This document shows positions 1 through 50,499 of a DNA stretch of 64,000 nucleotides, one piece after another. This DNA comes from Frateuria hangzhouensis (GTDB lineage: Bacteria > Pseudomonadota > Gammaproteobacteria > Xanthomonadales > Rhodanobacteraceae). Below the pieces are notes generated by a model that saw nothing but the letters and a program-made list of their open reading frames with translations, made no database searches and had not been told where the DNA came from. Positions within the stretch are counted from its first letter, which is position 1. Each line of letters opens with the position of its first letter. The stretch is taken from the NCBI RefSeq assembly GCF_026410505.1, contig NZ_JAPMIU010000013.1, positions 1 through 64,000 on the forward strand, written 5' to 3'. Both the position numbers and the translations under genes were made by a program.

Positions 1-59
1 CCGGCTTCCGCCTCACGCAGGAAGCCGATGATCTGCTCTTCGGAAAAACGCTTCTTCAC
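1..59 (-). CDS. IS3-family transposase OrfA, N-terminal fragment
   Basis: Only the first 19 or so codons are inside the window; the gene runs off the left edge. Read on the minus strand from a GTG at 57-59, the peptide begins VKKRFSEEQIIGFLREAE, the typical start of OrfA (helix-turn-helix subunit) in the IS407-like group of IS3 transposases. A good ribosome binding site, AAGGAG, lies 7 bases upstream of the GTG. In this family OrfB, the DDE integrase, is made by frameshifting from OrfA; it would lie outside the window. Assignment is from family knowledge of this N-terminus. Confidence 0.8.
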   Translation of the reverse strand, partial: MKKRFSEEQIIGFLREAEA

Positions 60-130
60 GTCCAATCTCCTTCGAATGGGGGATTGGACTCCAAACCGAT
101 GTGCTACTCAAAGGCGGGGGGACGTCGCCA
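1..130 (-). mobile_element. End of an IS3-family insertion sequence
   Basis: The GC-rich stretch holding the orfA start ends abruptly at about 130, where AT-rich DNA begins. On the minus strand the boundary reads TGGCGACGTCCCCCCGCC, starting with TG as IS3-family terminal repeats do. The other end and the target duplication lie outside the window, so the exact boundary is inferred. The IS sits at or inside the left part of the integrated element that follows. Confidence 0.6.
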
Positions 131-140
131 TAGATATAAT

Positions 141-281
141 TTTGCCCCACTTTCTACTAAGAATATTTTTAGTACAAACGTGAACAAGAGTTTGAGTCAT
201 TTTCTACTAAGTATATTTTTAGTAGGTTTTGACTCAAGGTTGTCCCATTTCTACTAGGATATTCTAGTAAGTTTGGGACAA
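141..281. repeat. Three tandem nested palindromes with covarying arms
   Basis: Three units start about every 50 bases. Each has an inner dyad: TACTAA/TTAGTA in units 1 (near 154-174) and 2 (near 204-224), TACTAG/CTAGTA in unit 3 (252-257/264-269). Units 2 and 3 add an outer 8-base dyad: TTGAGTCA (192-199) with TGACTCAA (230-237), and TTGTCCCA (240-247) with TGGGACAA (274-281). Unit 1 has only a degenerate outer pair. The outer arms differ between units 2 and 3 but stay complementary. The block lies just downstream of the helicase stop codon. Role unknown: RNA stem-loops at the transcript end, DNA hairpins, or operator/origin sites. Confidence 0.75.
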
Positions 282-285
282 GAAG

Positions 286-1761
286 TTAGACTGGCTTGAG
301 TAGGCGCTTAATCTTGCTTTGATTAGTGCCGAGTTCCCTAGCAATATCCCTTTGCGTATAACCCTTAGCCTTAAGGGCTAGAACCTGTGCCGCTAGAGAC
401 TCATTCTTAGCCTCTCTCTCAGCCCTAGCATCTGTACGCTTCTTCAGAGGAGGGTATTCTAGGAGTTCCTCAGAGAGGCAACGAATACCATCTAGAGCGT
501 TTACAAGCTTCTGAGCTTGGGTATAGCTGGTAACGATATGGTAAGTAGGTTCCTTACAATCTTCGTCTCTTAGCTTGGTTCTAGAGGCGAACTGTAAGAG
601 CTGATCATCTTCCCTCTGCCACCTAAGAGCTTGCTTACCTTCCTCTAGGGGAATACCCATCTTGTCTAGCATACGGTTAATAGGGGCTAGTTCATGGGGA
701 GCAGGATTACCGTGGAGCATATGAATGGAGATATGTTTGTCTCTCCACTCATTCATACCCCTAGTGTCAAACGGGGTTCTTTCTACATTCTCAGGAAGGA
801 CAGGCTTACACCATTCATGGGAAGCAAAGATAGCTTTGTCTTTGCCAATGAACTCTAAGGCTCTGTCTAGACACTTCTGTCCAAAACATTCTGAGTTCCA
901 CTCCTTAGCCACAGTGCCATCAGGCATAGTTAGGAGCATAGCCTTAGACACATAAGCCCCAGGAGCGTCCTTAATCAAGGGGAGGATGATAGGACAGCTA
1001 GTTCTTAGGGAGGGCTTCTTCTCTCTCCTAACAAAGAATCCACTACGCTCTAGGTGCTGAACCGCTAAGCCTTGATCTACGTTAGCCCCCATAAGGGTTA
1101 CTGATTCCGCATGAGTAAAGGGCTTAGTGAAGTCTGTATAACCTTCAATACAGACAGTGACCATAGGCTTACCCTTGGCGTCTGTACGGGGGGTAGCTGT
1201 TACAGACTTAGTGGGGCTTAGGATGGCGTCTAGGACCATTAGGAGAGGCTTACTTCTAATCTTCCGATTCTTAGCGTCCTCAATCCCTTGGAAGTGAATC
1301 TCCCAAGCGTCAGCCTGCATAGCCTCATTGAGGAGGAGGCTCCCATCCTCAGCACAATCCCCAACAAAGGGAGCAATAGCAATCTCAAACTCCTTACCGA
1401 GCATCTGAAAGCTATCAATAGCTTCAACCTTGAGCGCCTCATCTACTACTAGCTCCCAACCCTTAAGGTGGGAAGGGTCAATAGAGGCTAGACACTTATG
1501 CGTAATGATAAGTAGAGGGGATTGCTTCTTAACTAGCTGCTCATTCGTTGTCTTAATGACAGAACCCACCTCCTGAATCTGACTAGCGAAGATAGGCATA
1601 AAGGGCTTGCCTTCCTTCTCTAGCCTCTCCATAACCTCTAGGGCTAGCTTCCTTGTAGGGGAGACATAGACATAACGCTTAGAGGGGTCTAGGTTCTCAA
1701 TAAAGAACTGAGTCTTACCTGTGCCGGGGTTTCCTGCAAATACATCAATAATCTTAGACAT
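286..1761 (-). CDS. SF2 helicase-like ATPase with C-terminal helix-turn-helix
   Basis: The protein has 491 residues. Walker A is GNPGTGKT at residues 10-17; an SF2 motif Ia-like VSPTRKLA is at 33-40, THKCL at 87-91, Walker B VVDEA at 105-109 and a motif III-like VTATP at 187-191. A degenerate motif VI-like stretch, QFASRTKLRD, lies at 390-399. Residues 463-488 (GYTQRDIARELG...) form a helix-turn-helix of the resolvase/sigma-4 kind, so the ATPase probably acts at a specific DNA site. By family it would unwind DNA for replication or partition of the element; that is inference. It is the distal gene of the minus-strand set, 274 bases after the preceding gene. I know no close named relative. Confidence 0.7.
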   Translation of the reverse strand: MSKIIDVFAGNPGTGKTQFFIENLDPSKRYVYVSPTRKLALEVMERLEKEGKPFMPIFASQIQEVGSVIKTTNEQLVKKQSPLLIITHKCLASIDPSHLKGWELVVDEALKVEAIDSFQMLGKEFEIAIAPFVGDCAEDGSLLLNEAMQADAWEIHFQGIEDAKNRKIRSKPLLMVLDAILSPTKSVTATPRTDAKGKPMVTVCIEGYTDFTKPFTHAESVTLMGANVDQGLAVQHLERSGFFVRREKKPSLRTSCPIILPLIKDAPGAYVSKAMLLTMPDGTVAKEWNSECFGQKCLDRALEFIGKDKAIFASHEWCKPVLPENVERTPFDTRGMNEWRDKHISIHMLHGNPAPHELAPINRMLDKMGIPLEEGKQALRWQREDDQLLQFASRTKLRDEDCKEPTYHIVTSYTQAQKLVNALDGIRCLSEELLEYPPLKKRTDARAEREAKNESLAAQVLALKAKGYTQRDIARELGTNQSKIKRLLKPV

Positions 1762-1875
1762 GACTTCTCCGTGGCCAGCTTATGCTGACTCATATATGTA
1801 ATGTTGAAATATCTAGGGAAGAAATAGACTTTCCATCTCCCCGATTGGCGAAAAAATTTTCTCGCCCTAATCCTT

Positions 1876-1935
1876 GTTCCTCTTGCACCACATAACCATG
1901 TTATGCCTATAGCCCTTAGGCTAATAAAGAGGAAC
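1876..1935. repeat. Cloverleaf-like palindrome upstream of the helicase gene
   Basis: An outer 9-base perfect dyad, GTTCCTCTT (1876-1884) with AAGAGGAAC (1927-1935), encloses two smaller hairpins: CATAAC-CAT-GTTATG (1891-1905) and GCCTA/TAGGC (1905-1909/1917-1921). Together they can fold as a three-way junction in DNA or RNA. It lies in the 1762-2035 intergenic space, which has no other coding capacity I can see. Possible roles are an origin or nick site, a leader structure for the helicase transcript, or a terminator-like element. Confidence 0.65.
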
Positions 1936-1950
1936 TAATATAACGCTCTC

Positions 1951-2020
1951 TAAGCCCCTTCTAATCTCTCCCCTATACCAACCCTAGGGGTTAATAGAGA
2001 GAATGCTTTAGAGGGGCTTA
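1951..2020. repeat. Nested hairpin in the 1762-2035 intergenic region
   Basis: TAAGCCCCT (1951-1959) pairs with AGGGGCTTA (2012-2020), and the stem continues past a bulge. Inside it TCTCTC pairs with GAGAGA, and CCCCTA (1970-1975) pairs with TAGGGG (1985-1990). The arm motif GGGGCTTA recurs at 3249-3256 near the integrase end, so it is a repeated motif of the element. Function unknown. Confidence 0.6.
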
Positions 2021-2035
2021 TATGAGCTTACAGGG

Positions 2036-2302
2036 CTACTTAATACTAAACCCCAGGTCATCAATAGACTTTCTAAGGATACGCTCAGAAGTCCATACCT
2101 CACCTAGCTGACAATTCTTGGGAAGGTTAGTACAGACGTATAGACCATCCTGTCTTAGCTGGTAGGTAACGCCCATATACGTCTTAGGCTCACCAATGAG
2201 CTTAGAGTTCTTCTCCTTAATATAGGAGTCAGCCTCTACAGCCCTAGCCTTACGCTCATCTCTATAAGCCTGTTCCTCAGGCGATACATAATTACTCCCC
2301 AT
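2036..2302 (-). CDS. Small protein of unknown function
   Basis: An 88-residue charged, soluble protein; I do not recognise it. The N-terminal half is rich in Lys, Glu and Arg. A short central part (residues about 40-65) with alternating hydrophobic residues could be a small beta fold. No signal peptide or membrane segment is visible. It overlaps the end of the preceding 98-residue gene by 11 bases, so the two are probably translationally coupled. Codon use (AGG Arg, CTA/CTT Leu) matches the rest of the element. Being in an operon with a winged-helix protein makes a regulatory or replication role plausible but unproven. Confidence 0.6.
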   Translation of the reverse strand: MGSNYVSPEEQAYRDERKARAVEADSYIKEKNSKLIGEPKTYMGVTYQLRQDGLYVCTNLPKNCQLGEVWTSERILRKSIDDLGFSIK

Positions 2303-2588
2303 TGTTAGTCTCCTCTTTCTTCTTATTGTTAGGGTTAGTCATCTCATCCATTAGAGCGTTCCATAGCTCTGTCTGAGCCTTAACCGTAGCGTGTCTACCG
2401 CTCAATACAGAGCCACCTTCTACGCCTGTTACCTTTCCTTGTTCGTCTCTAGTGACGATAGAAGGCTTAGCCTTAGGTGTTTCCCTATTCATCTGAGCGT
2501 CTAAGCTCTGTCGAATTAGTGGATCATTCTTATATAGGCTAACTAGCGTCTCAGCCTTAGCCTGTTCCCATAGCTTATCTACGCTCAT
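2292..2588 (-). CDS. Small protein of unknown function
   Basis: A 98-residue protein that I do not recognise. It has a probable helical N-terminus (about residues 1-33), a Gly/Ser-rich middle (VTGVEGGSVLSGR) and a charged Lys/Glu/Asn-rich tail, with no membrane segment. Its start codon overlaps the stop of the winged-helix gene by 4 bases (ATGA), and its end overlaps the next gene. It is therefore the middle member of a tightly coupled three-gene operon. The layout (DNA-binding protein followed by small acidic or basic proteins) resembles control or replication modules of small phages and plasmids; this is inference only. Confidence 0.6.
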   Translation of the reverse strand: MSVDKLWEQAKAETLVSLYKNDPLIRQSLDAQMNRETPKAKPSIVTRDEQGKVTGVEGGSVLSGRHATVKAQTELWNALMDEMTNPNNKKKEETNNGE

Positions 2589-2851
2589 AGCTCCACCACC
2601 TTATAACGGCTAGCCTTAGTAACTCCTTCCTTAGAGCGTTCCTTCTCAATTAGGTTACGCTTAATAAGCTTAGCTAGGTTATGTCTTACAGCGTTAAGGC
2701 TAAGGCCAGTCATACGACCTAGCTTAGTTACGCTAATAGTTGTCCATCCGTCAGCTTCTACATTGTTCTTAATGATGATGTAGATGAGCTTAGATGAGAG
2801 AGTGTCTAGCCCCTTGCTAGGGGAAGAGATTAGTTGGTCAATAAGTGACAT
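2585..2851 (-). CDS. Winged-helix DNA-binding protein
   Basis: An 88-residue protein that is essentially one winged-helix domain. Residues about 40-70 (ISVTKLGRMTGLSLNAVRHN followed by LAKLIKRNLIEKE) read as helix, turn, recognition helix, third helix and wing strands, as in MarR/Rep-like winged helices. It is the first gene of the three-gene set. The 413-base non-coding region directly upstream (2852-3264) holds repeated motifs that could be its binding sites. It could be a repressor of the element or a minimal replication initiator; the sequence does not decide. No cysteines or ligand domain are present. Confidence 0.65.
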   Translation of the reverse strand: MSLIDQLISSPSKGLDTLSSKLIYIIIKNNVEADGWTTISVTKLGRMTGLSLNAVRHNLAKLIKRNLIEKERSKEGVTKASRYKVVEL

Positions 2852-2878
2852 TGTTGTTACTCCTGTTGGTTGTTACGT

Positions 2879-2895
2879 CCTAGCTTCTTGCTAGG
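2879..2895. repeat. CCTAGC-TTCTT-GCTAGG hairpin upstream of the winged-helix gene
   Basis: A perfect 6-base dyad with a 5-base loop, about 28-44 bases upstream of the winged-helix start codon. It is in the right place for an operator or a leader hairpin of that operon. Function is inferred from position only. Confidence 0.5.
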
Positions 2896-2951
2896 TGTTC
2901 TATATGTACTATCGAGATTAGAGGGAAAAGTACCCCATTCTTGTTGCTACT

Positions 2952-3094
2952 TATTTCGTACCTACATACATTGACTGTAAAAGTAGGGAAAACTCCTTCA
3001 AAATTATTCTGACAAAAGATCAATGCTTACCTACTACTACCTAGAAAGTAGGGAAAACTACGGGAAAACTGGTAGTACCTACCTACTACTACCT
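2952..3094. repeat. Iteron-like repeats, candidate origin or operator region
   Basis: Within the 413-base gap between the winged-helix gene and the integrase, GTAGGGAAAACT occurs at 2983-2994 and 3048-3059, with a shortened copy (GGGAAAACT) at 3062-3070, one helical turn after the second. ACCTACTACTACCT occurs at 3029-3042 and 3081-3094. CCTACT and AGTAGG are mutual complements, so the repeats can also pair. AT-rich DNA follows at 3095-3130. Direct repeats next to an initiator-sized winged-helix gene are typical of iteron origins, but an operator array is equally possible. Confidence 0.5.
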
Positions 3095-3167
3095 CAAATA
3101 TGGGTAAATACTTTCCAAACTATTTTCCTCATGTTGTCCTTTGTGTGTCCAAAAGTGACGCATAAGA

Positions 3168-3268
3168 AAGCCCTGTAAGGCTCACCTAACCCCCAACTAA
3201 TACCTGAGTACTAGGGAGAGGCTACGATGGCCGTACAGGGCTTCTATGGGGCTTACAGAGGGGGTTAG
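3168..3268. repeat. Interlocking palindromes at the 3' end of the integrase gene
   Basis: AAGCCCTGTA (3168-3177) is perfectly complementary to TACAGGGCTT (3234-3243). CTAACCCCC (3186-3194) pairs with GGGGGTTAG (3260-3268), which overlaps the integrase stop codon. CTGTAAG (3173-3179) can alternatively pair with CTTACAG (3252-3258). The pairings cross, so alternative or pseudoknot folds are possible. It may serve as terminator for the integrase transcript or as a recombination-related site. Confidence 0.5.
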
Positions 3269-4239
3269 TCTATTAGGTGGAGAACATCTTTAGCTTGTAG
3301 GTGGGTGTATCTGGCTACGCTCCTAGGGTCTCTATGTCCGCTAACAACCATAATCTGAGCGTTGTTAAGCCCCTTCCTAGCTACGTTGGTAATCCGGGTA
3401 TGGCGTAGCTGGTGGAGCCTTATAGAGTCAGGGAGTCCTAGCCTTTCCCTAGCCCTCTTAACAGCGTTGGTGACGCTATGGGGCTTGATGTTGAACACCC
3501 TGTCATTAGGTAAGAGCTTAAGATGGAAACGCTCCATAGCCTCTCTTAGAAGCTCTACAGCCCTATGCGTAAGGGGTACGTTCCTAGTGCCTGTCTTACC
3601 GTCTATAACGTCTGCTATGCGTTCCTCTAAGTGGAGACAAGAGGGAGTTAGCTTGATTATCTCTGACCTACGCATAGCGGTTTCATAAGCTATCTCTACG
3701 ATTATTCGCATCATAGGCTTAAGCCTTCCTAGGAGAGCGTCTAGCTCTGCCCTACTCACCACCTTGTCATTAGGCTTACTAGCTGGGGGCATAACTAGGC
3801 CCGCTACAGGATTGGTTACGTCTAAGAGAAGCTCCCTTATGGCGTACCTGTAGAAGCGGGAGAGGAACGCTAGTTGGCACCTACACGTCTCACTCTTCAC
3901 TTGCTTAAGCCTAGAGAGCTTGAAGTCATTAACCATCTTTGGCGTTAGTTGGTTAATGGGGAGGGGGAACACTTGCCCTAGCTGCCTAGCCATGAGGCTA
4001 GCTTTCCAATAGCTCTCTCTGTCCTTTAGCTTGGCTTCGGCATAGGCCATGCCTAGTTCCTCCACCGTAGGCCACTGAGACGCCTCAGTGAGCTTAGAGA
4101 GCTTGTGTAGGGACTCAGCCTGAGTAGCCCACGCCTCAGCTAGCTCCCTTGTGGGGAACGTCTTAGACCTGGGGGATTCTCCCTTGATGCGTACCTGTAC
4201 GTTCCAGCTACCGGAACGGAGCATTCTGAGCGTTGCCAT
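3265..4239 (-). CDS. int: Tyrosine recombinase (phage-type integrase)
   Basis: The protein has 324 residues, the usual length for the family. The N-terminal arm-binding and core-binding part (to about residue 155) is followed by a catalytic domain with all expected residues: Arg190 in ETAMRRSEI, Lys215 in GKTG, His276 and Arg279 in HQLRHT, His302 in SGHRD and the nucleophile Tyr311 in ARYTHL. It integrates and excises the element at the tRNA-Val gene, whose 3' part lies 62 bases upstream of the start codon. The ribosome binding site AGGAG precedes the ATG. Arg codons are mainly AGG/AGA, unlike the host genes. Confidence 0.92.
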   Translation of the reverse strand: MATLRMLRSGSWNVQVRIKGESPRSKTFPTRELAEAWATQAESLHKLSKLTEASQWPTVEELGMAYAEAKLKDRESYWKASLMARQLGQVFPLPINQLTPKMVNDFKLSRLKQVKSETCRCQLAFLSRFYRYAIRELLLDVTNPVAGLVMPPASKPNDKVVSRAELDALLGRLKPMMRIIVEIAYETAMRRSEIIKLTPSCLHLEERIADVIDGKTGTRNVPLTHRAVELLREAMERFHLKLLPNDRVFNIKPHSVTNAVKRARERLGLPDSIRLHQLRHTRITNVARKGLNNAQIMVVSGHRDPRSVARYTHLQAKDVLHLID

Positions 4240-4300
4240 GAGTGAACTCCTGTAGTTAAGGGGAGTTCCTCAGTGCAGATAAGCCCTTGATTCTCAGAGT

Positions 4301-4347
4301 CCTTCACACGGCAGGTGTCGCAAGTTCGATCCTTGCATCGCCCACCA
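4301..4347 (+). other. tRNA-Val(CAC) 3' fragment, attachment site of the element
   Basis: The sequence from the anticodon loop (TTCACAC, anticodon CAC) through the T arm (GCAAG-TTCGATC-CTTGC), acceptor strand ATCGCCC and ACCA end is a perfect tRNA 3' half. The 5' half is missing: upstream bases do not continue the CTGCC anticodon stem or a D arm. This is the att junction left by integration. The recreated complete tRNA-Val gene should be at the other end of the element, left of the window. The chromosome resumes at 4348, with the original tRNA terminator. Confidence 0.85.
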
Positions 4348-5420: not shown

Positions 5421-5837
5421 TCAGCGCCCCCAGCATGCCGGGTCGTTCGCGGCGGTGCCGGTCGACCCCTGGCGCCCGGCCTGGTCAAGGCTCAAGGTCT
5501 GGCATGCGTCGTCGTCGCGCTTCTGCGTTCCGGTCGCGGTCGCCACCAGCTTGAAAGTGGTGCTCGACGTATTGGCCGGATCGATGCCCACCGAGTAATA
5601 GGCGCCCGCCTGGGAACTGGAGCCGCCCAGCGACGCCAGATCCGACGCATAGGCGTTGTTGCTGTAGAGGAAGCGTTCCTGCCGGGCCGCCAGGTCGGTC
5701 AGCGCGCGCTGCGCATCCACGCGGTGGGAACGCACTCCGTACTTGCGATAGGACGGGATCGCGATCGAGGCCAGGATCGCCATGATCACCAGCACGATCA
5801 TCATCTCGATCATCGAAAAACCATGTTGCCTGCGCAT
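5421..5837 (-). CDS. pilE: Type IV pilin-like protein PilE
   Basis: A 138-residue prepilin. The leader MRRQHG precedes FSMIEMMIVLVIMAILASIAIP, with cleavage after Gly6 and Glu5 of the mature form; a pilin globular domain follows with a C-terminal disulphide pair (Cys in DDACQT and DPACWG). I use the ATG at 5835-5837 rather than the first in-frame ATG because GGGGAG precedes it and it starts 10 bases after the pilY1 stop. In Xanthomonadales and Pseudomonas PilE is a minor pilin that couples the PilVWX-PilY1 tip complex to the fibre. Confidence 0.88.
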   Translation of the reverse strand: MRRQHGFSMIEMMIVLVIMAILASIAIPSYRKYGVRSHRVDAQRALTDLAARQERFLYSNNAYASDLASLGGSSSQAGAYYSVGIDPANTSSTTFKLVATATGTQKRDDDACQTLSLDQAGRQGSTGTAANDPACWGR

Positions 5838-5847
5838 GAGACTCCCC

Positions 5848-8800
5848 TTATTTGTCCAGCGGTTCATGCCAGGATACCTCGCTGCTGAGTACCGACTTGA
5901 GGGTGGTGATCTCCTTACAGATGATCGCGCCGGTGGACGTCTGCACGCAGGCGGTCAACGTCCTCTCGCCGGTGCCCTCGCCCACATGCAGGCTCGGCGG
6001 CGCCGGCAGCCCCGGGCCGAGATCGGTCGAGCGGTTGACGACCTTCGCATCCCCGCCGCCAGTGGTGCCGAAGAACTGCAGCGCCGGGTTGGCCGTTCCG
6101 CTCTTGTAGTTGAGGCCGTACAGCGCACCGCGACCGACGTCGGTACAGGTGTCCGTACCGGGAAAGAACGTGCTGGTCAGCAGCACGCCGCCCAGCAGGC
6201 TCTGAGTACTGACCACCCGCTCGGCCGGGGTGGCGTCACCGCTGGCCGTCGGCGCCGTCAGCTTCAGGAACCAGCCCAGGCGGGTCTCCGAGTCGAAACT
6301 GCCGAGGAGCTTGTTGAACGTGTCGATGTCGCTTCCGTCGGCATCCGTACCGGCGCCGGTCACCGAATTGTCGGTGTAGACGTCGATGTCCGTCACGTCG
6401 AGCAGGTCGTCCATTTCCAGCGGCATGATCTTGTACTGCTGGTCGCTGGTCGATAGCAGTGACGTGTCGATCAGGCCGACGATCTTCTGCTGCGCAGTCG
6501 ACTCCAGATCCTTCCTCGTGTAGGCACGGCCGGTGCCGACGAATACCATCGGCGCGCCGCGATCGTTGCGCCCGACCGTGGGCCGGATCGTGATCGGCAG
6601 GTCCAGGTCCGAGAGCATCTGTTGTGGCGTCCAGGCGTCCGGATCCGGATCGGGCATGCCTTTGTCGTCGGTAAAGTTGAGCTTCCAGAGCGAGCCGCCG
6701 AAACCGCTGGCACCATTGTTCTTGACGCTACCGAAGTAGAGGCCCTCGGAGCGACCGTCGAGGTTGTAGTCCGAGGCGATCAGGTCGCCCGCGAAGCTGC
6801 TCAGCCCCGCGCCGGTTTCGCCAACGTTGGAAAGATCGAAGGTCTTGGCCGGCGTGGTCGAACCAGAGGCCTTGGCAAGGTCCTCCATATCGAAGGCGCG
6901 GATCTTCAGTTGCGTGGTCGCCACGGCATCGCCGCCTTCGGACGAACCGGAACCGCCGTTGTCGGTGGTACCCGAGCCGGTGAACAGGAAGAACTTGTTC
7001 GGGCTGCCGCTGGTGTTGTCACGGAAGATCGCCGCGGCCGGGATGGATGAGGTGTAGGTATCGACCACCTTGGTGATGTTTACGCACGAAGGCGCGTGCA
7101 ACTGGGTATCGCTGTCGCAAACGGCCGTACCGTCGGACAACTCGGTATTGGTCAGCTCGGCCAAGAGCACCGGCTTCTTCTCCGGGTTGGTCACGTCCAG
7201 AACCACGTAGGCGGAGAACGAGTTCTGCGTTGCCGACGTACCGTCGGTGGCCGTATTCACCGAGATCGGACCGCCGCCGAAGCGGAACGGCACGATGAGG
7301 ATGGTGCCCCAACCGTCCGGGTGGTCAGTGTCGCCCTCGCCGAAAATCTTCACATCCTGCGCGATCGGGCTGCCGTCGACATAGAAGTTGTGCTTGTAGT
7401 CGGGGTCGGCCAACCAGCGCAGGTGCGGGAGCAGGTTACCGGGTACGTACGCCCAGAGCTCGCCACCCAGCGGATCCTGGGTCACCGTCGTACCGTCGGT
7501 AGGCGCCAACTGCAGCTTCTGTTCCCTGGCGTTGTAGAAGCCGCCATTGAAGGCATGCAGCATGCCGTCGTTGGCACCCACGTAGACGACCTGGCGACGA
7601 CTGCGGTAGTGGTCGCGGAACGTGCCATAGCTGGTGTCGCCGTACAACAGATCGAATGCCTCCGACGGCGTGCCAACCACCACCGGCGTCGAGTCGACGA
7701 TGTCGCCCAGGCGCAGGACGCGCAGCGTTCCATCGTTGTTGTAGTCGACGGTGCGCGAGCGCCACAGCGGCACGCCCTTGCTGCTCTTGTCGGTGATTTC
7801 GTAGCCGCGGATCCACGCGACGATACGCTTGGCCACGTCAGGATCGGCGGTGTTGAGGTACCGGAAATTGCCGCTGTAGGTCGTACCGCTCTTGGCGCCG
7901 TAGAACCCGCTACCGGCACTGTCTCCGCTGAATACGAACGGCTGCTCCTCGCCGTTGTCGACCACGCCGTCATGGTCTTTGTCGATCCAGGTGAAGATAT
8001 AGCGCCCGTTGCTGGAGTTCGTAGTGTAGTTGCGATTGGTGCTGGTCAGGTCGCTGCTCACGCCCGTGTCGAAGCCCGTGGCCCACAGCTGGTCCTGCGC
8101 ACTCCAGACAGTCTTCAATTCGTCCAGACCGTGGTCGGTGATGCTCGCCTCGGTCTTGTCGAAGACCGTCACGGAAGAGCCGTCGGCGTTGGCCGGCATG
8201 ATCTCGCGATGGAATTTGGTCTGGTTGTCGTTCGGGTCGTAATAGAACTCGATCACTGGATCGACGTCGTAGCCATCGAGCACCGCCGCACCACTCGTGA
8301 AGCCGTTGCCATTCTCGCGCAGGCGGCCGAAGCTGTCGGTCCACAGGCCGTTGAGCGTGCCGCTCCAATCGGCCGCGCGATCGCTCGAGTCCTTGCGCTC
8401 GGCCTGGTAGAGCGCCTGGTAGACCAGGCCCACGCCCTTGGCGCTGTTGGCCACCACCGCCGCGGCGGTACCGGAACCGGCGCGCTTGAGGATGGCGTCA
8501 AACGTGCGCGACAGGCGGTCCTGCAACTGGGCGGGATTACGCACCATGAAATAGTTGTCCGGCAGGCCGTCCTGCCCGGTCACGCCACTATCGTTGATGA
8601 TCGCGTCCCACTCAGGCGAGTCCTGGCGATCCGGCTTCTTGTTGTCGTCCTGGTCGGCGAAGCCGCCGTACTTGGCCGAGAAGAACAGTGGATTGGGCAG
8701 AGGCAGCTGTTCGGACGGGCCTGTGCTCAGCTTGTCGGCGGTCGGCGCGTCCCATTTATCTGCGCCGCCCGTGCTACCAAAGAGAAGACTACCGTCCTTG

Positions 8801-11322
8801 CCACCGGGCCGCAGTACAGTGAACTTCGCCGCCTGTCCCGTGGAGTTGTCGGCTCCGGCCATCGTGTACCCGATACGCAAGGCGTTGCCAGCGTAGGCGG
8901 ACAGCGCTTGCACGCGTGCAATCAGGAACTGTCCGTTGACCTTCACCGTACCCTTGTTGCTACACACATTGTTGCTGCCGACGTCTTCGCAGATATCGTC
9001 ACGACCGTTTCCGTTGCCGTCATACGAACAATACGCGCCAACGCAGAAGCTCAACATCTCGACCACGTCGTTGTCATGGTCGTTGCCCCACTGGGAATCC
9101 TCCCACGTGATGGCGAAGCTCCCACGAACCGGCCGGCGCTGACCATTGACGGTAATTACCTTGGTCGGAACACCATAGACCTTCGGCTTGCCATTGCTGG
9201 TTTGCGTCGCGGACGTCTTCGGGCCAACGGTCAGGTTGCCGAGGTAACAGCTGCGCCAGCCCGAAGCACTGCCCAAGGCCGCGCTGCCATTGTTGTTGGC
9301 CTGGCATGCCGGCGTGATCGTGATGTAGTCGACCGGGCAGCTGTCGATGTCGTTGCCGGTCTCGCAAACCGGAATGGTAAAGCTCGGCAGCGACTCGGCC
9401 AGCGCGATCGCATAGGTCTGCACCTTCTGCGTGCCGGTCTTGTCCGGTCGAATGTCGTTGGTCCAGGCCTCGTAGGCCAGGCCGGCCATCTGGTAACCGC
9501 CTTCCAGCGAGGGCACGTCCGGGCAGATGCCGTGGGCCAATGCGAGGTCGTCGATCTCGTAGGGCGTGCAGACGTCCTGGTAGGTGGTGCTCGTAAGGGC
9601 ACCGTAGCGGCCGACCAGGTATTTGGGTGGCGAACCACTGGTATCGGCGCCGGCCAGGTTCTCGTTGGTACCGACCAGTGTGGTTGCCGCATCCGCTTGC
9701 ACCGGCAGGGACGCGACGTCGGGGATCTGGTCGCTGTCGAACGAGTTCAGCCCCGTGGTGATGACGATGATGCTGCAGTTGGCGCAATACGGGTTGCCGC
9801 CGGTCTCCTTGCCATCCGCGTCCTTCGGGTCACGGTAGGGATCCAGCCAGGATGCCAGCGGCAGGCCGCTGACCGCGTTGATGTTCGTATCGCTGACGTT
9901 GAAGGTGGTGGTCGCCGCACTTTCGCCGCCGATGTAGCGCAAAGCCTCGGCATACATCTCCGCGAGCGGATTGCCCGAATCCTTGCAGTCGTAACCGTCG
10001 GTGGCCGGATCCTTCAGGTGGCCGTTCGCACCATCCACCTTGCGCTGCAGGATGCCGTAGGTGCTGCAATCGCTGTAATTGTCCTTGCTCGGATCCCAGG
10101 AGGTGATCCGGAACCGGCTCAGCGTGTTGACGATGCCTTCGTCGCCCGAGCCCGTGTTGCAGAACTGTCCCGTTTGCAGATTGACCTCGTCGACCCGACC
10201 CTGGCCCGGGTTGTAGGCGCAGGTGCCGCCGGTGCCGTTGCCGGCGAACAGGCCGATGTTTCGGCGCAGCACACCACCGGCACGCGGCTTGCTGTAGGTG
10301 CCGGTAACGAGTCCGAAGCGCATGGAGCCGTTTTCGCCGTAACGTTGCAGCAGGCCAGCCGGCTTCCAGTGGTCGGTCGCGGTGCCGCTCGCTGCCGTCT
10401 CGGTGTACTTGCGGCAGAAGCTTTCCCGGTAGCTCGACTCGGCATCGCACACCTGCACGCGCACGGTGTAGGTCTTGTTGCCGAGACCATCGTTATCGCG
10501 AGACGCCGAATCGGACGGATTGATGTCACCGCCACTTTCGGTGACATCCTCGCGCCAGCGGCATTGCTCGCGCGCCGTCGAAGCCCATTCCGTGTAGGAG
10601 CCCTTTGCCACCCTCAGCTTCGGCGTGCTGTCAGTGGACGGCGAAACGTTGCACAGCGACAGTCCCTTGCCACCCGTGTCCGTGGTGCTGAAAGGGGTGT
10701 ATTTCTTGACGTCGCTACCGAGGTAAACCTTGGCCCAGGCGTGCAGGTCGCTCGGAATGTAGGACCGTTCGAGTACCGTGGTGTCCTTGCCATCCGTGGA
10801 GCGGTTGCCGCCGTAAAGCACCAGGCGCAATACGTCGATGCGGCTCATCGCAGCCCAGTTGAGGAAGTTGCCACTCCAGCTCGAGCCATCGCACTCGTGG
10901 GCCTTGCCATTGCCGTTGTCGTCGGTCGCCTTGGCGGCGGCCTTGAATACGCCACTGCCGTAGCCGTAGCAGAGATTGGCGTCGAAGTAGCCGGAGTAAT
11001 CGAAGCCATCCTGGTAGGTGGTATCGACCACGCCGTCACCGTTGAGGTCGGTGTAGTCGGTGTAGGCCTTGATGTACAGCTGCTCGTCGCGGGACATCAC
11101 CAGCATGACCAGCGGCGGCACGGCACCGACGTTGAGCAGCGGATAGGCGGTGTAGTTATCCGCCGTGGCCGCTTTCCCGTCGGTCGTGGTGGAAAGTGGT
11201 GCATCCAGTCCGATGCCGACGGTGGTGCCCGCGCGCGCGGCAGGAATCACACCGACGCCTGCAACCAGCGTGATCAGGGACAGCGCTGCGATCGTGCGCA
11301 AGGACGCGTGGAAGGTTCGCAT
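5848..11322 (-). CDS. pilY1: Type IV pilus tip adhesin/biogenesis protein PilY1
   Basis: A protein of 1824 residues, large as usual in Xanthomonadales. The signal peptide (residues 1-31, ending ARA) is followed by a Cys- and Asp/Asn-rich N-terminal region with an EF-hand-like calcium loop near residues 83-96 (DLNGDGVVDTTYQD). A second calcium-type loop lies near 1114 (DKDHDGVVDNGEE), and the C-terminal beta-propeller of the PilC/PilY1 family includes YVGANDGMLHAFNGG near 1245. PilY1 sits at the pilus tip, controls extension and retraction and can mediate adhesion. The start is 20 bases after the pilX stop, with AGGGAA ahead. An apparent longer frame upstream runs through pilX and is rejected. 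Confidence 0.93.
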   Translation of the reverse strand: MRTFHASLRTIAALSLITLVAGVGVIPAARAGTTVGIGLDAPLSTTTDGKAATADNYTAYPLLNVGAVPPLVMLVMSRDEQLYIKAYTDYTDLNGDGVVDTTYQDGFDYSGYFDANLCYGYGSGVFKAAAKATDDNGNGKAHECDGSSWSGNFLNWAAMSRIDVLRLVLYGGNRSTDGKDTTVLERSYIPSDLHAWAKVYLGSDVKKYTPFSTTDTGGKGLSLCNVSPSTDSTPKLRVAKGSYTEWASTAREQCRWREDVTESGGDINPSDSASRDNDGLGNKTYTVRVQVCDAESSYRESFCRKYTETAASGTATDHWKPAGLLQRYGENGSMRFGLVTGTYSKPRAGGVLRRNIGLFAGNGTGGTCAYNPGQGRVDEVNLQTGQFCNTGSGDEGIVNTLSRFRITSWDPSKDNYSDCSTYGILQRKVDGANGHLKDPATDGYDCKDSGNPLAEMYAEALRYIGGESAATTTFNVSDTNINAVSGLPLASWLDPYRDPKDADGKETGGNPYCANCSIIVITTGLNSFDSDQIPDVASLPVQADAATTLVGTNENLAGADTSGSPPKYLVGRYGALTSTTYQDVCTPYEIDDLALAHGICPDVPSLEGGYQMAGLAYEAWTNDIRPDKTGTQKVQTYAIALAESLPSFTIPVCETGNDIDSCPVDYITITPACQANNNGSAALGSASGWRSCYLGNLTVGPKTSATQTSNGKPKVYGVPTKVITVNGQRRPVRGSFAITWEDSQWGNDHDNDVVEMLSFCVGAYCSYDGNGNGRDDICEDVGSNNVCSNKGTVKVNGQFLIARVQALSAYAGNALRIGYTMAGADNSTGQAAKFTVLRPGGKDGSLLFGSTGGADKWDAPTADKLSTGPSEQLPLPNPLFFSAKYGGFADQDDNKKPDRQDSPEWDAIINDSGVTGQDGLPDNYFMVRNPAQLQDRLSRTFDAILKRAGSGTAAAVVANSAKGVGLVYQALYQAERKDSSDRAADWSGTLNGLWTDSFGRLRENGNGFTSGAAVLDGYDVDPVIEFYYDPNDNQTKFHREIMPANADGSSVTVFDKTEASITDHGLDELKTVWSAQDQLWATGFDTGVSSDLTSTNRNYTTNSSNGRYIFTWIDKDHDGVVDNGEEQPFVFSGDSAGSGFYGAKSGTTYSGNFRYLNTADPDVAKRIVAWIRGYEITDKSSKGVPLWRSRTVDYNNDGTLRVLRLGDIVDSTPVVVGTPSEAFDLLYGDTSYGTFRDHYRSRRQVVYVGANDGMLHAFNGGFYNAREQKLQLAPTDGTTVTQDPLGGELWAYVPGNLLPHLRWLADPDYKHNFYVDGSPIAQDVKIFGEGDTDHPDGWGTILIVPFRFGGGPISVNTATDGTSATQNSFSAYVVLDVTNPEKKPVLLAELTNTELSDGTAVCDSDTQLHAPSCVNITKVVDTYTSSIPAAAIFRDNTSGSPNKFFLFTGSGTTDNGGSGSSEGGDAVATTQLKIRAFDMEDLAKASGSTTPAKTFDLSNVGETGAGLSSFAGDLIASDYNLDGRSEGLYFGSVKNNGASGFGGSLWKLNFTDDKGMPDPDPDAWTPQQMLSDLDLPITIRPTVGRNDRGAPMVFVGTGRAYTRKDLESTAQQKIVGLIDTSLLSTSDQQYKIMPLEMDDLLDVTDIDVYTDNSVTGAGTDADGSDIDTFNKLLGSFDSETRLGWFLKLTAPTASGDATPAERVVSTQSLLGGVLLTSTFFPGTDTCTDVGRGALYGLNYKSGTANPALQFFGTTGGGDAKVVNRSTDLGPGLPAPPSLHVGEGTGERTLTACVQTSTGAIICKEITTLKSVLSSEVSWHEPLDK

Positions 11323-49257: not shown

Positions 49258-50499
49258 ATGAAAATCCTGTTTCGCGTGATGTGCTGCCTGGCGCTGGTGT
49301 TCAGCGCCGGTTGCGCCACCACCCCGCCTCCAGCCACCCGCCCGGCGCCCTTGCTGCTGGTTTCCATCGACGGGTTCCGCACCGACTACCTCGAACGCGA
49401 CCTGACGCCCACCCTGGCGATGCTCGCGCGCGATGGCGTGCAGGCGTCCATGCAACCGTCCTTCCCCTCGCTCACCTTCCCCAACCACTACACGCTCGTG
49501 ACCGGACTGCGTCCGGATCACCACGGCATCGTCAACAACACGATGTACGACGCGCGGCTGGGCAAATTCTCGCTGCACAACCGCAAGGCGGTGAGCGACG
49601 GCCGCTGGTGGGCCGAAGGCACGCCGCTGTGGGAAACCGCCGACCGCCACGGCCTGCGTACCGCGACGATGTTCTGGCCGGGCTCGGAGGCGGACATCCA
49701 CGGCCGCCACCCGGACTACTGGAAGCCCTACGACGGTGCCGTGACGCCGATCCAGCGGGTCGACCAAGTACTGGCCTGGCTGGACCTGCCGCCGCCCCAG
49801 CGGCCGGCTTTCCTGACCTTGTACTTCGACGCTGTCGACCACGCCGGCCATCAATACGGGCCGGACTCGCCGCAGGTCGACCAGGCCCTGCGCGACACCG
49901 ACCAGGCGCTGGCGCGGCTGATCGCGGGGCTCAGGCAGCGCGACCTGCTCGAGCACATCAACCTGATCGTGCTGGCCGACCACGGCATGGCATCCACCCC
50001 GCTGGAGCACAGCGTGCTGATCGAGCGCGAGCTCGACCTGGACGACGTGCAGGTCGTGAGCCTGGGCGTGCTGGCCGGTTTCAATCCCAAACCGGGACGC
50101 GATTTCGCGGCCATCGAGACGAAGCTGGAGCGCCCGCATCCGCACATGCAGTGCTGGGACAGGAGCCGCGTGCCGGCGCGCCTGGCCTATGGCCACAACC
50201 CGCGCGTGCCGCAACTGCTGTGCCTGGCCAAGGTGGGCTGGCGCATCACCACCGCGCAGTGGCTGGCTTCGCACAAGGGCCGTATCAGCCTGGGCGAGCA
50301 CGGCTACGACAACGCCGCACCGCAGATGCAGGCGCTGTTCGTCGCACACGGTCCGGCCTTCCGCGACGGCGCCACGGTGCCGCCCTTCCCCAACGTGGAC
50401 GTCTATCCGCTGATGGTGCACCTGCTCGACCTGCCGCCGCAGCCGAGCGATGGGGACTACGACGCGGTCAAGGGCATGCTGGTGCCCTCGGCGCGGTAG
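49258..50499 (+). CDS. Nucleotide pyrophosphatase/phosphodiesterase, NPP family lipoprotein
   Basis: A 413-residue protein. Lipobox FSAGC gives a lipoprotein; then an alkaline-phosphatase-superfamily domain: metal Asp in VSIDGFR, nucleophile Thr in SLTFPNHYTLVTG, Asp/His in DAVDHAGHQYGP and LADHGM, and His in GEHGYDN. Xanthomonas NPP is the structural model for this family, hydrolysing phosphodiesters and nucleotide pyrophosphates. The ATG at 49258-49260 lies 48 bases from the divergent gene. Confidence 0.9.
   Translation: MKILFRVMCCLALVFSAGCATTPPPATRPAPLLLVSIDGFRTDYLERDLTPTLAMLARDGVQASMQPSFPSLTFPNHYTLVTGLRPDHHGIVNNTMYDARLGKFSLHNRKAVSDGRWWAEGTPLWETADRHGLRTATMFWPGSEADIHGRHPDYWKPYDGAVTPIQRVDQVLAWLDLPPPQRPAFLTLYFDAVDHAGHQYGPDSPQVDQALRDTDQALARLIAGLRQRDLLEHINLIVLADHGMASTPLEHSVLIERELDLDDVQVVSLGVLAGFNPKPGRDFAAIETKLERPHPHMQCWDRSRVPARLAYGHNPRVPQLLCLAKVGWRITTAQWLASHKGRISLGEHGYDNAAPQMQALFVAHGPAFRDGATVPPFPNVDVYPLMVHLLDLPPQPSDGDYDAVKGMLVPSAR

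Follow-up and report, generated by a model that had tools for sequence, protein, structure and literature searches.

Nested hairpins that keep pairing while their arms change lie between the helicase and TerS-like genes of satellite-like integrated elements

The window analysed here is a stretch of 64,000 nucleotides of Frateuria hangzhouensis DNA, which starts at base 1 of contig C13 within the end of an insertion sequence (IS). This terminus reads as the start of an orfA, probably of the IS3 type. Beyond it lie an array of hairpin units, a helicase gene, two small open reading frames (ORFs), a gene for a RepO-like protein, a set of direct repeats, a tyrosine integrase gene and an attR site (Table 1). 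Unit 3 of the array begins 4 nt past the stop codon of the helicase gene. The direct repeats, we infer, are a candidate replication origin. On contig C30, an intact tRNA-Val(CAC) gene (5712–5786) ends in the attR sequence; from there, C30 continues for 1.56 kb into the opposite end of the element before stopping in the same IS terminus. Given this tRNA match and the IS terminus shared by both breaks, the array sits in an integrated chromosomal element that has been split by IS copies and by the contig end. The terminus points inwards at both broken ends (window 1–128, and C30 7344–7468 in locus L051); two inverted IS copies are suggested, with the middle piece lost or unassembled. No terS gene was detectable in the window's own genome, so this copy of the element may be disabled; the TerS-like gene downstream of the array has been lost or else was not assembled.

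Table 1 Features at the start of the window, with positions in nucleotides
Feature	Position	Strand	Details
IS terminus	1–128	-	same end at C13:1–128, C14:82338–82464 and C30:7344–7468
Hairpin unit 1	141–188	-	inner arms TACTAA/TTAGTA, perfect; outer arms TTGTTC/GGGCAA
Hairpin unit 2	192–237	.	perfect nested palindrome; outer stem 8 bp, TTGAGTCA/TGACTCAA; inner stem 7 bp
Hairpin unit 3	240–281	.	perfect nested palindrome; outer stem 8 bp, TTGTCCCA/TGGGACAA; inner stem 6 bp
SF2-type helicase (DEAD), C-terminal HTH	286–1761	-	Pfam DEAD, 2.3e-07; phrog_2467, 3.3e-24
Small ORF, 88 aa	2036–2302	-	94-aa look-alike in L013, similarity by eye
Small ORF, 98 aa	2292–2588	-	homologues in other elements; match in L006 weak (26%)
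RepO-like winged-helix protein, 88 aa	2585–2851	-	phrog_345 (replication initiation O-like), 1.4e-08; alignments A4, A8
Four imperfect 29-nt direct repeats	2963–3219	.	5' of the RepO-like gene
Tyrosine integrase	3265–4239	-	Pfam Phage_integrase, 4.8e-25
attR, 47-bp copy of the tRNA-Val 3' end	4301–4347	+	identical to C30:5740–5786

The element and its host differ in the tetramer CTAG, which occurs 56 times in the element (129–4300) against 16.0 expected, a 3.5-fold excess, and is nearly absent from the host stretch (4400–64000; 9 seen, 179.2 expected). Just within the left end of the element, at 5860–5950 of C30 (L051), several GTTCACA repeats in both orientations were noted by eye; they are possible integrase, excision or origin sites.

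An exact scan recovered units 2 and 3 as perfect nested palindromes and agreed with the first-pass annotation of this DNA that their outer 8-mers differ from each other and are each self-complementary. That annotation had described three nested palindromes recurring about every 50 bases. The measured spacings of 50 and 47 nt bear out the period, and the inner arms of unit 1 pair perfectly as described, but its outer arms pair only with the help of G-U: the predicted fold on the helicase-sense strand has six outer pairs, of which two are G-U and not Watson-Crick. On our reading, a bulge in this stem would add two further pairs. The two perfect palindromes lie within 90 bp, compared with three in total across 40 dinucleotide shuffles of 129–4300.

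Four further elements carry the same integrase, RepO-like and helicase genes, namely L005, L006 (Dyella sedimenti) and the IMG/VR contigs L013 and L032. The helicase was present in 3 of 233 genomes of the family, these being its own, G103 (58% identity, locus L005) and G053 (55%, L006), and the integrase was found in the same three at E 1e-70; the window integrase is 71% identical to the L005 copy and 65% to the L006 copy. L013 and L032 have the gene order of the other elements (integrase, RepO-like, two small ORFs, helicase, TerS-like). Their helicases are 79% identical to each other and 26–30% to those of the remaining elements. The ORFs at L013 4614–4898 and L032 6711–6992 match one another and, by eye, are counterparts of the 88-aa ORF in the window. 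L032 adjoins prophage genes. Among their named matches, Pseudomonas phages rank first, at ~72–77%.

Wider genome searches returned 2 of 398 genomes of the order (its own and G103), 2 of 369 of the class (its own and G807, at 1e-4) and none of 395 of the sister family. The window helicase had no relative among viral contigs and genome contigs and, at E 1e-5, no match among plasmids or phages. Among phages, the L006 and L013 helicases found distant proteins only (30 records with a cut-off of E 1 and 85 with E 1e-5, none of which reaches 60% identity), such as relatives in the large Aeromonas phage 65 and Escherichia phage RB16. Against plasmids, the L005 helicase gave three weak matches (E 0.2–0.5) and the L013 helicase none. 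Alignments A1 and A3 found nothing among viral contigs, and searches with A6, A9 and the L006 integrase returned L013 and L032 with no additional element. In the search for Pseudomonas genomes, the RsmY family gave nothing above cut-off in 56 and in 30 genomes. L012 was rejected as a further element: its integrase is similar, it has no match to the helicase, RepO-like or TerS-like proteins, and it ends ~2.5 kb past the integrase. In genome G048 of the same family, a fragment at L054 1483–1743, similar to the HTH part of TerS only, lies beside what looks by eye like a tRNA end and is perhaps the remnant of an element. Just outside the L013 element, at 1524–1722, lie a C4 antisense RNA and an a1/b1 target RNA.

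Nested hairpins occupy the gap between the helicase and TerS-like genes in all four relatives. Counted from the helicase stop codon, they begin after 4 nt in the window and after 1, 2, 24 and 21 nt in L005, L006, L013 and L032. The main units share one build: an outer stem of 6–9 bp and an inner one of 5–9 bp, separated by an internal loop, the inner stem being closed by a small loop. The relatives have one to three units, followed by a long hairpin structure ahead of terS, which is a long imperfect hairpin in L005 and a branched fold in L006, L013 and L032. L005 has two units. Over 7 bp, their outer arms match window units 3 and 2 without a change of order (TGAGTCA/TGACTCA at 8771–8813, as in unit 2, and TGTCCCA/TGGGACA at 8818–8859, as in unit 3); its inner arms are partly altered and still pair. 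The first unit of L006 has different outer arms (TTATTCAC/GTGAATAA) and is followed by a second unit. In L013 and L032 the outer arms consist of other letters again and are still complementary in the main units, and two units of L032 combine a common inner arm with differing outer arms.

The first-pass annotation had argued for selection on pairing from covariation between neighbouring units of a single element, to which the homologous elements now add. It had named arms that diverge without complementarity as the contrary outcome. What was found in the main units is either identity over 7 bp (L005) or changed arms that remain complementary (L006, L013, L032). Selection for pairing is supported by these units, but not evenly by the weaker ones: the L032 hairpins at 8666–8694 (b) and 8786–8824 (d) keep the inner stem without an outer stem, and the third unit of L006 (11154–11192) includes G-U in its pairing. 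Every one of the 65 outer pairs in nine units is Watson-Crick. With arms swapped between units the figure is 274 of 486, and none of 2000 shuffles reached the observed score; as the units were chosen as palindromes, the count measures variety with pairing, not discovery. It excludes the weaker units W1 (window unit 1), L6c, L32b and L32d. Pairs were counted by script from the arm coordinates, since a MAFFT alignment of the units misplaces the outer arms. Across the five elements, the exact scan found 14 nested palindromes. The helicase–terS gap, 1579 of 28501 bases (5.5%), contains 8 of these (binomial 2e-7), an enrichment that includes the two window units that prompted the search. Pairing is maintained despite base change, at a fixed position between the helicase and terS.

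Palindromes of this kind could also arise by mutation. Template switching during replication is known to correct imperfect palindromes in bacteria, and it would perfect inverted repeats without selection on function. The units of one element do look duplicated. However, it explains neither the fixed site behind the helicase in five elements nor the unchanged outer arms of L005 at 58% helicase identity, and we consider a purely mutational origin very unlikely.

The whole gap folds strongly. Folding on both strands, which the first-pass annotation had proposed as a check, gave z-scores for window 130–290 of −5.6 on the plus strand and −9.1 on the minus strand, and none of 200 shuffles equalled the fold on either strand. 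For the whole helicase–terS gap of the five elements, sense z-scores were −9.2, −8.4, −6.0, −7.5 and −6.4 and antisense z-scores ranged from −6.8 to −5.1, the gap of the window having been shortened by the IS copy. Control gaps between the integrase and RepO-like genes scored between −3.5 and −1.3 on the sense strand and between −1.5 and −0.2 on the antisense strand, and 50 windows within helicase genes gave −3.6 to 2.1. The first 100 nt of the gap scored −2.3 in L013 and −2.6 in L032. In the branched hairpin before terS, L013 and L032 are identical in 157 of 192 columns. A sense model of this region has 57 consensus pairs, of which two are changed on both sides, three on one side and none broken; an antisense model is equally good (59 pairs; two changed on both sides, four on one side, none broken).

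The strand comparisons pull in different directions. The best plus-strand fold of the window array consists of three separate hairpins. On the minus, helicase-sense strand, unit 3 pairs with unit 1 and encloses unit 2, so that on this strand three hairpins are one of two possible folds. Sense z-scores are stronger than antisense ones in all five helicase–terS gaps, and equally in all five control gaps. Wobble counts lean towards the sense strand (32 G-T versus 21 A-C); single units are more stable as sense in 7 of 13 cases, as antisense in 5, with one tie; raw energies favour antisense in L005 and L032 and tie in L013. Because the control gaps show the same lean and the raw energies of L005 and L032 favour antisense, the strand data, wobble counts included, do not separate RNA from DNA; they allow, without proving, action as RNA. 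The control-gap scores and the long-range sense fold led us to lower the weight of an RNA-processing reading and to raise that of two DNA-based rivals.

The array matches no family that we compared it with, in line with the first-pass annotation, which had set aside known families, T-rich terminators, attC sites and CRISPR repeats. At the Rfam gathering cut-off, searches of the window, L005, L006, L013 and L032 gave no match to the array, and returned only tRNAs and, outside the element, C4 RNAs. A relaxed Rfam search of window 100–320 and L032 8570–9080 gave sub-cut-off matches only, the best being MIR473 with 25.5 of the 52 bits needed. Intrinsic transcription terminators would fit hairpins behind a gene; yet no GC-rich stem with a T run was predicted in window 1–400 or L005 8550–8950, the two in L032 lie away from the nested units, and the downstream gene runs in the same direction. 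We rate this explanation as extremely unlikely. Integron attC sites have the core motifs GTTRRRY and RYYYAAC, which are reverse complements of each other; no gap holds both on one strand, with none in the window, L005 and L013, one in L006 and two in L032. The near-identical repeats of a CRISPR array are likewise absent: a 34-nt repeat occurs in two copies only 85% alike and a 12-nt core in three, spaced by the same 50 and 47 nt. TIGR arrays, which PMC12045711 describes as tandem variable palindromic stems in phage-related DNA, resemble the array in having tandem stems that vary and stay palindromic. Unlike them, the array has no sense-strand box C (TGATGA is absent from the sense strand of the five gaps and occurs once on the L032 antisense strand), and no Nop family appeared among the Pfam matches of the scanned element proteins.

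The gene that follows the gap was found in four of the five elements. It is probably TerS-like, a call resting on its position and on weak similarity (E 2e-6 to 0.2). Its protein matches 37 phage records, of which five were inspected: in four, the homologue lies directly 5' of a gene for the terminase large subunit or a putative packaging protein, and the fifth has the same layout, unannotated. Matches outside ICP2 are limited to the C-terminal half of the protein. An AlphaFold model of moderate quality (pLDDT 71.5) had no match in the PDB at E 0.001.

Together with this gene, att sites at tRNA genes and a PD-T7-4-like gene in L005 suggest that the elements are phage satellites; they perhaps parasitise Zobellviridae-type phages. 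The duplicated att core measures 47 bp in the window and C30, 49 bp in L005 and 108 bp in L013, with L032 compared with L013 only. The L005 cargo gene (6729–7448) was assigned to PD-T7-4 by PADLOC (E 1.3e-12) and contains Pfam DUF4145. No virion structural gene was found among the scanned proteins, a subset of the ORFs. Two Zobellviridae phages with a TerS homologue also have nested palindromes in noncoding DNA (L043 575–615 and L044 26110–26150).

Compared with TerS satellites of the PICI/SaPI type, the elements are alike in having a tRNA-sited integrase, replication genes, a TerS-like gene, a size of ~6–7 kb and, in one element, a defence-like gene. They are unlike them in their RepO-like protein, phrog_2467-type helicase and Zobellviridae-like TerS. 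PICMI satellites of Vibrio share a size of ~6 kb, few genes and an integrase; in contrast, PMC10803314 gives PICMI an alpA gene, a putative primase and a site beside fis, and states that no terS homologue was identified.

A packaging site is one of the two DNA-based rivals. The array would then be cos- or pac-like, bound as folded or double-stranded DNA by the element's own TerS-like protein, and would redirect the terminase of a Zobellviridae-type helper. Packaging sites often adjoin terS, the adjoining gene is TerS-like with homologues 5' of terminase large subunit or packaging genes in the inspected phages, and phage matches confined to the C-terminal half, outside ICP2, would leave the HTH half of TerS free to differ. 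However, three phage genomes (two scanned up to base 50000) have no nested palindrome just 5' of terS, and recognition of double-stranded DNA by a protein would call for one repeated sequence, whereas the outer arms differ among units. We hold a packaging site to be unlikely, though worth weighing.

The second DNA-based rival, a replication signal of iterons or single-strand initiation hairpins that serve the RepO-like protein and the helicase, also strikes us as rather improbable. The element has both genes, the inner arms of the units resemble one another in the window and in L032 (not in L005 or L006), and the antisense raw fold energy is as strong in several elements. According to PMC8263062, the origin of PLE1 has three semi-palindromic iterons of ~30 bp, which lends this reading a precedent. 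On the other side, the direct repeats 5' of repO are more iteron-like, and iterons bound by a protein should not have outer arms that vary and yet remain complementary. PLE satellites resemble the present elements in having semi-palindromic repeats or abundant RNA in an intergenic region (PMC8263062, PMC7567579); the PLE iterons are RepA sites, whereas here the outer arms vary between units and still pair.

The abundant noncoding RNA made from an intergenic region of PLE satellites, described in PMC7567579, is also a precedent for a free-standing RNA, in which the array and the long hairpin would form one regulatory or helper-directed molecule with its own ends. Folding of the whole gap in five elements fits such an RNA. 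Against it, promoter-like sites numbered none in L005, one in L032 (1.3 expected) and one in the window (0.3 expected; within unit 2), the promoter and terminator scans covering these three, and no clear antisense target appeared: window 129–288 shares a single 10-mer with 289–4300, as a reverse complement. We judge a free-standing RNA decidedly unlikely. That the array and long hairpin serve, as RNA or folded single-stranded DNA, in hijacking, for instance as a ligand of the TerS-like protein or of a helper-phage protein, seems highly improbable to us; if true, a satellite RNA with stems free to change while pairing would steer packaging or helper gene control.

The explanation that we favour, tentatively and at well below an even chance, is a folded RNA in the helicase–terS gap, with a role in mRNA processing or protection or in the control of terS. 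An RNA is suggested by the fixed place between two cistrons of the same direction and by stems kept through paired changes. The array would be a structured intercistronic region leading from the helicase to the TerS-like gene, and would act at the RNA level. Processing or protection is proposed because the closest in shape is T7 R1.1, an RNA of 60 nt that is set between two genes and has an internal loop of 4/5 nt (PMC6121014). Like it, the array places between two cistrons a stem interrupted by an internal loop of ~4 nt per side, which is the architecture and position of RNase III processing signals. Unlike R1.1, it has up to three tandem units, set at most 4 nt from the stop codon in three elements, and its cleavage is putative. 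The stems may thus be signals for mRNA processing or 3'-end protection, like the RNase III-cut internal-loop hairpin among the T7 early genes, and the helicase and terS would be expressed at different levels or times. Against processing, the first stem in those three elements lies where a terminating ribosome would sit.

The region is a folded structure outside Rfam that keeps its place between replication and packaging genes in a satellite-like group, and no description of it or of such elements was found in the open-licence literature searched. If it acts as RNA, it would show how a parasite with so small a gene set controls the timing of its packaging gene; if as DNA, it may mark a packaging or replication site. 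Under the favoured intercistronic RNA, the final hairpin might also govern translation of terS. The motif CAAGAG is absent from L005 and lies 6–8 nt 5' of the terS start in L006, L013 and L032, with CTCTTG in the upstream structure; we suggest that pairing between the two could mask the ribosome site of terS.
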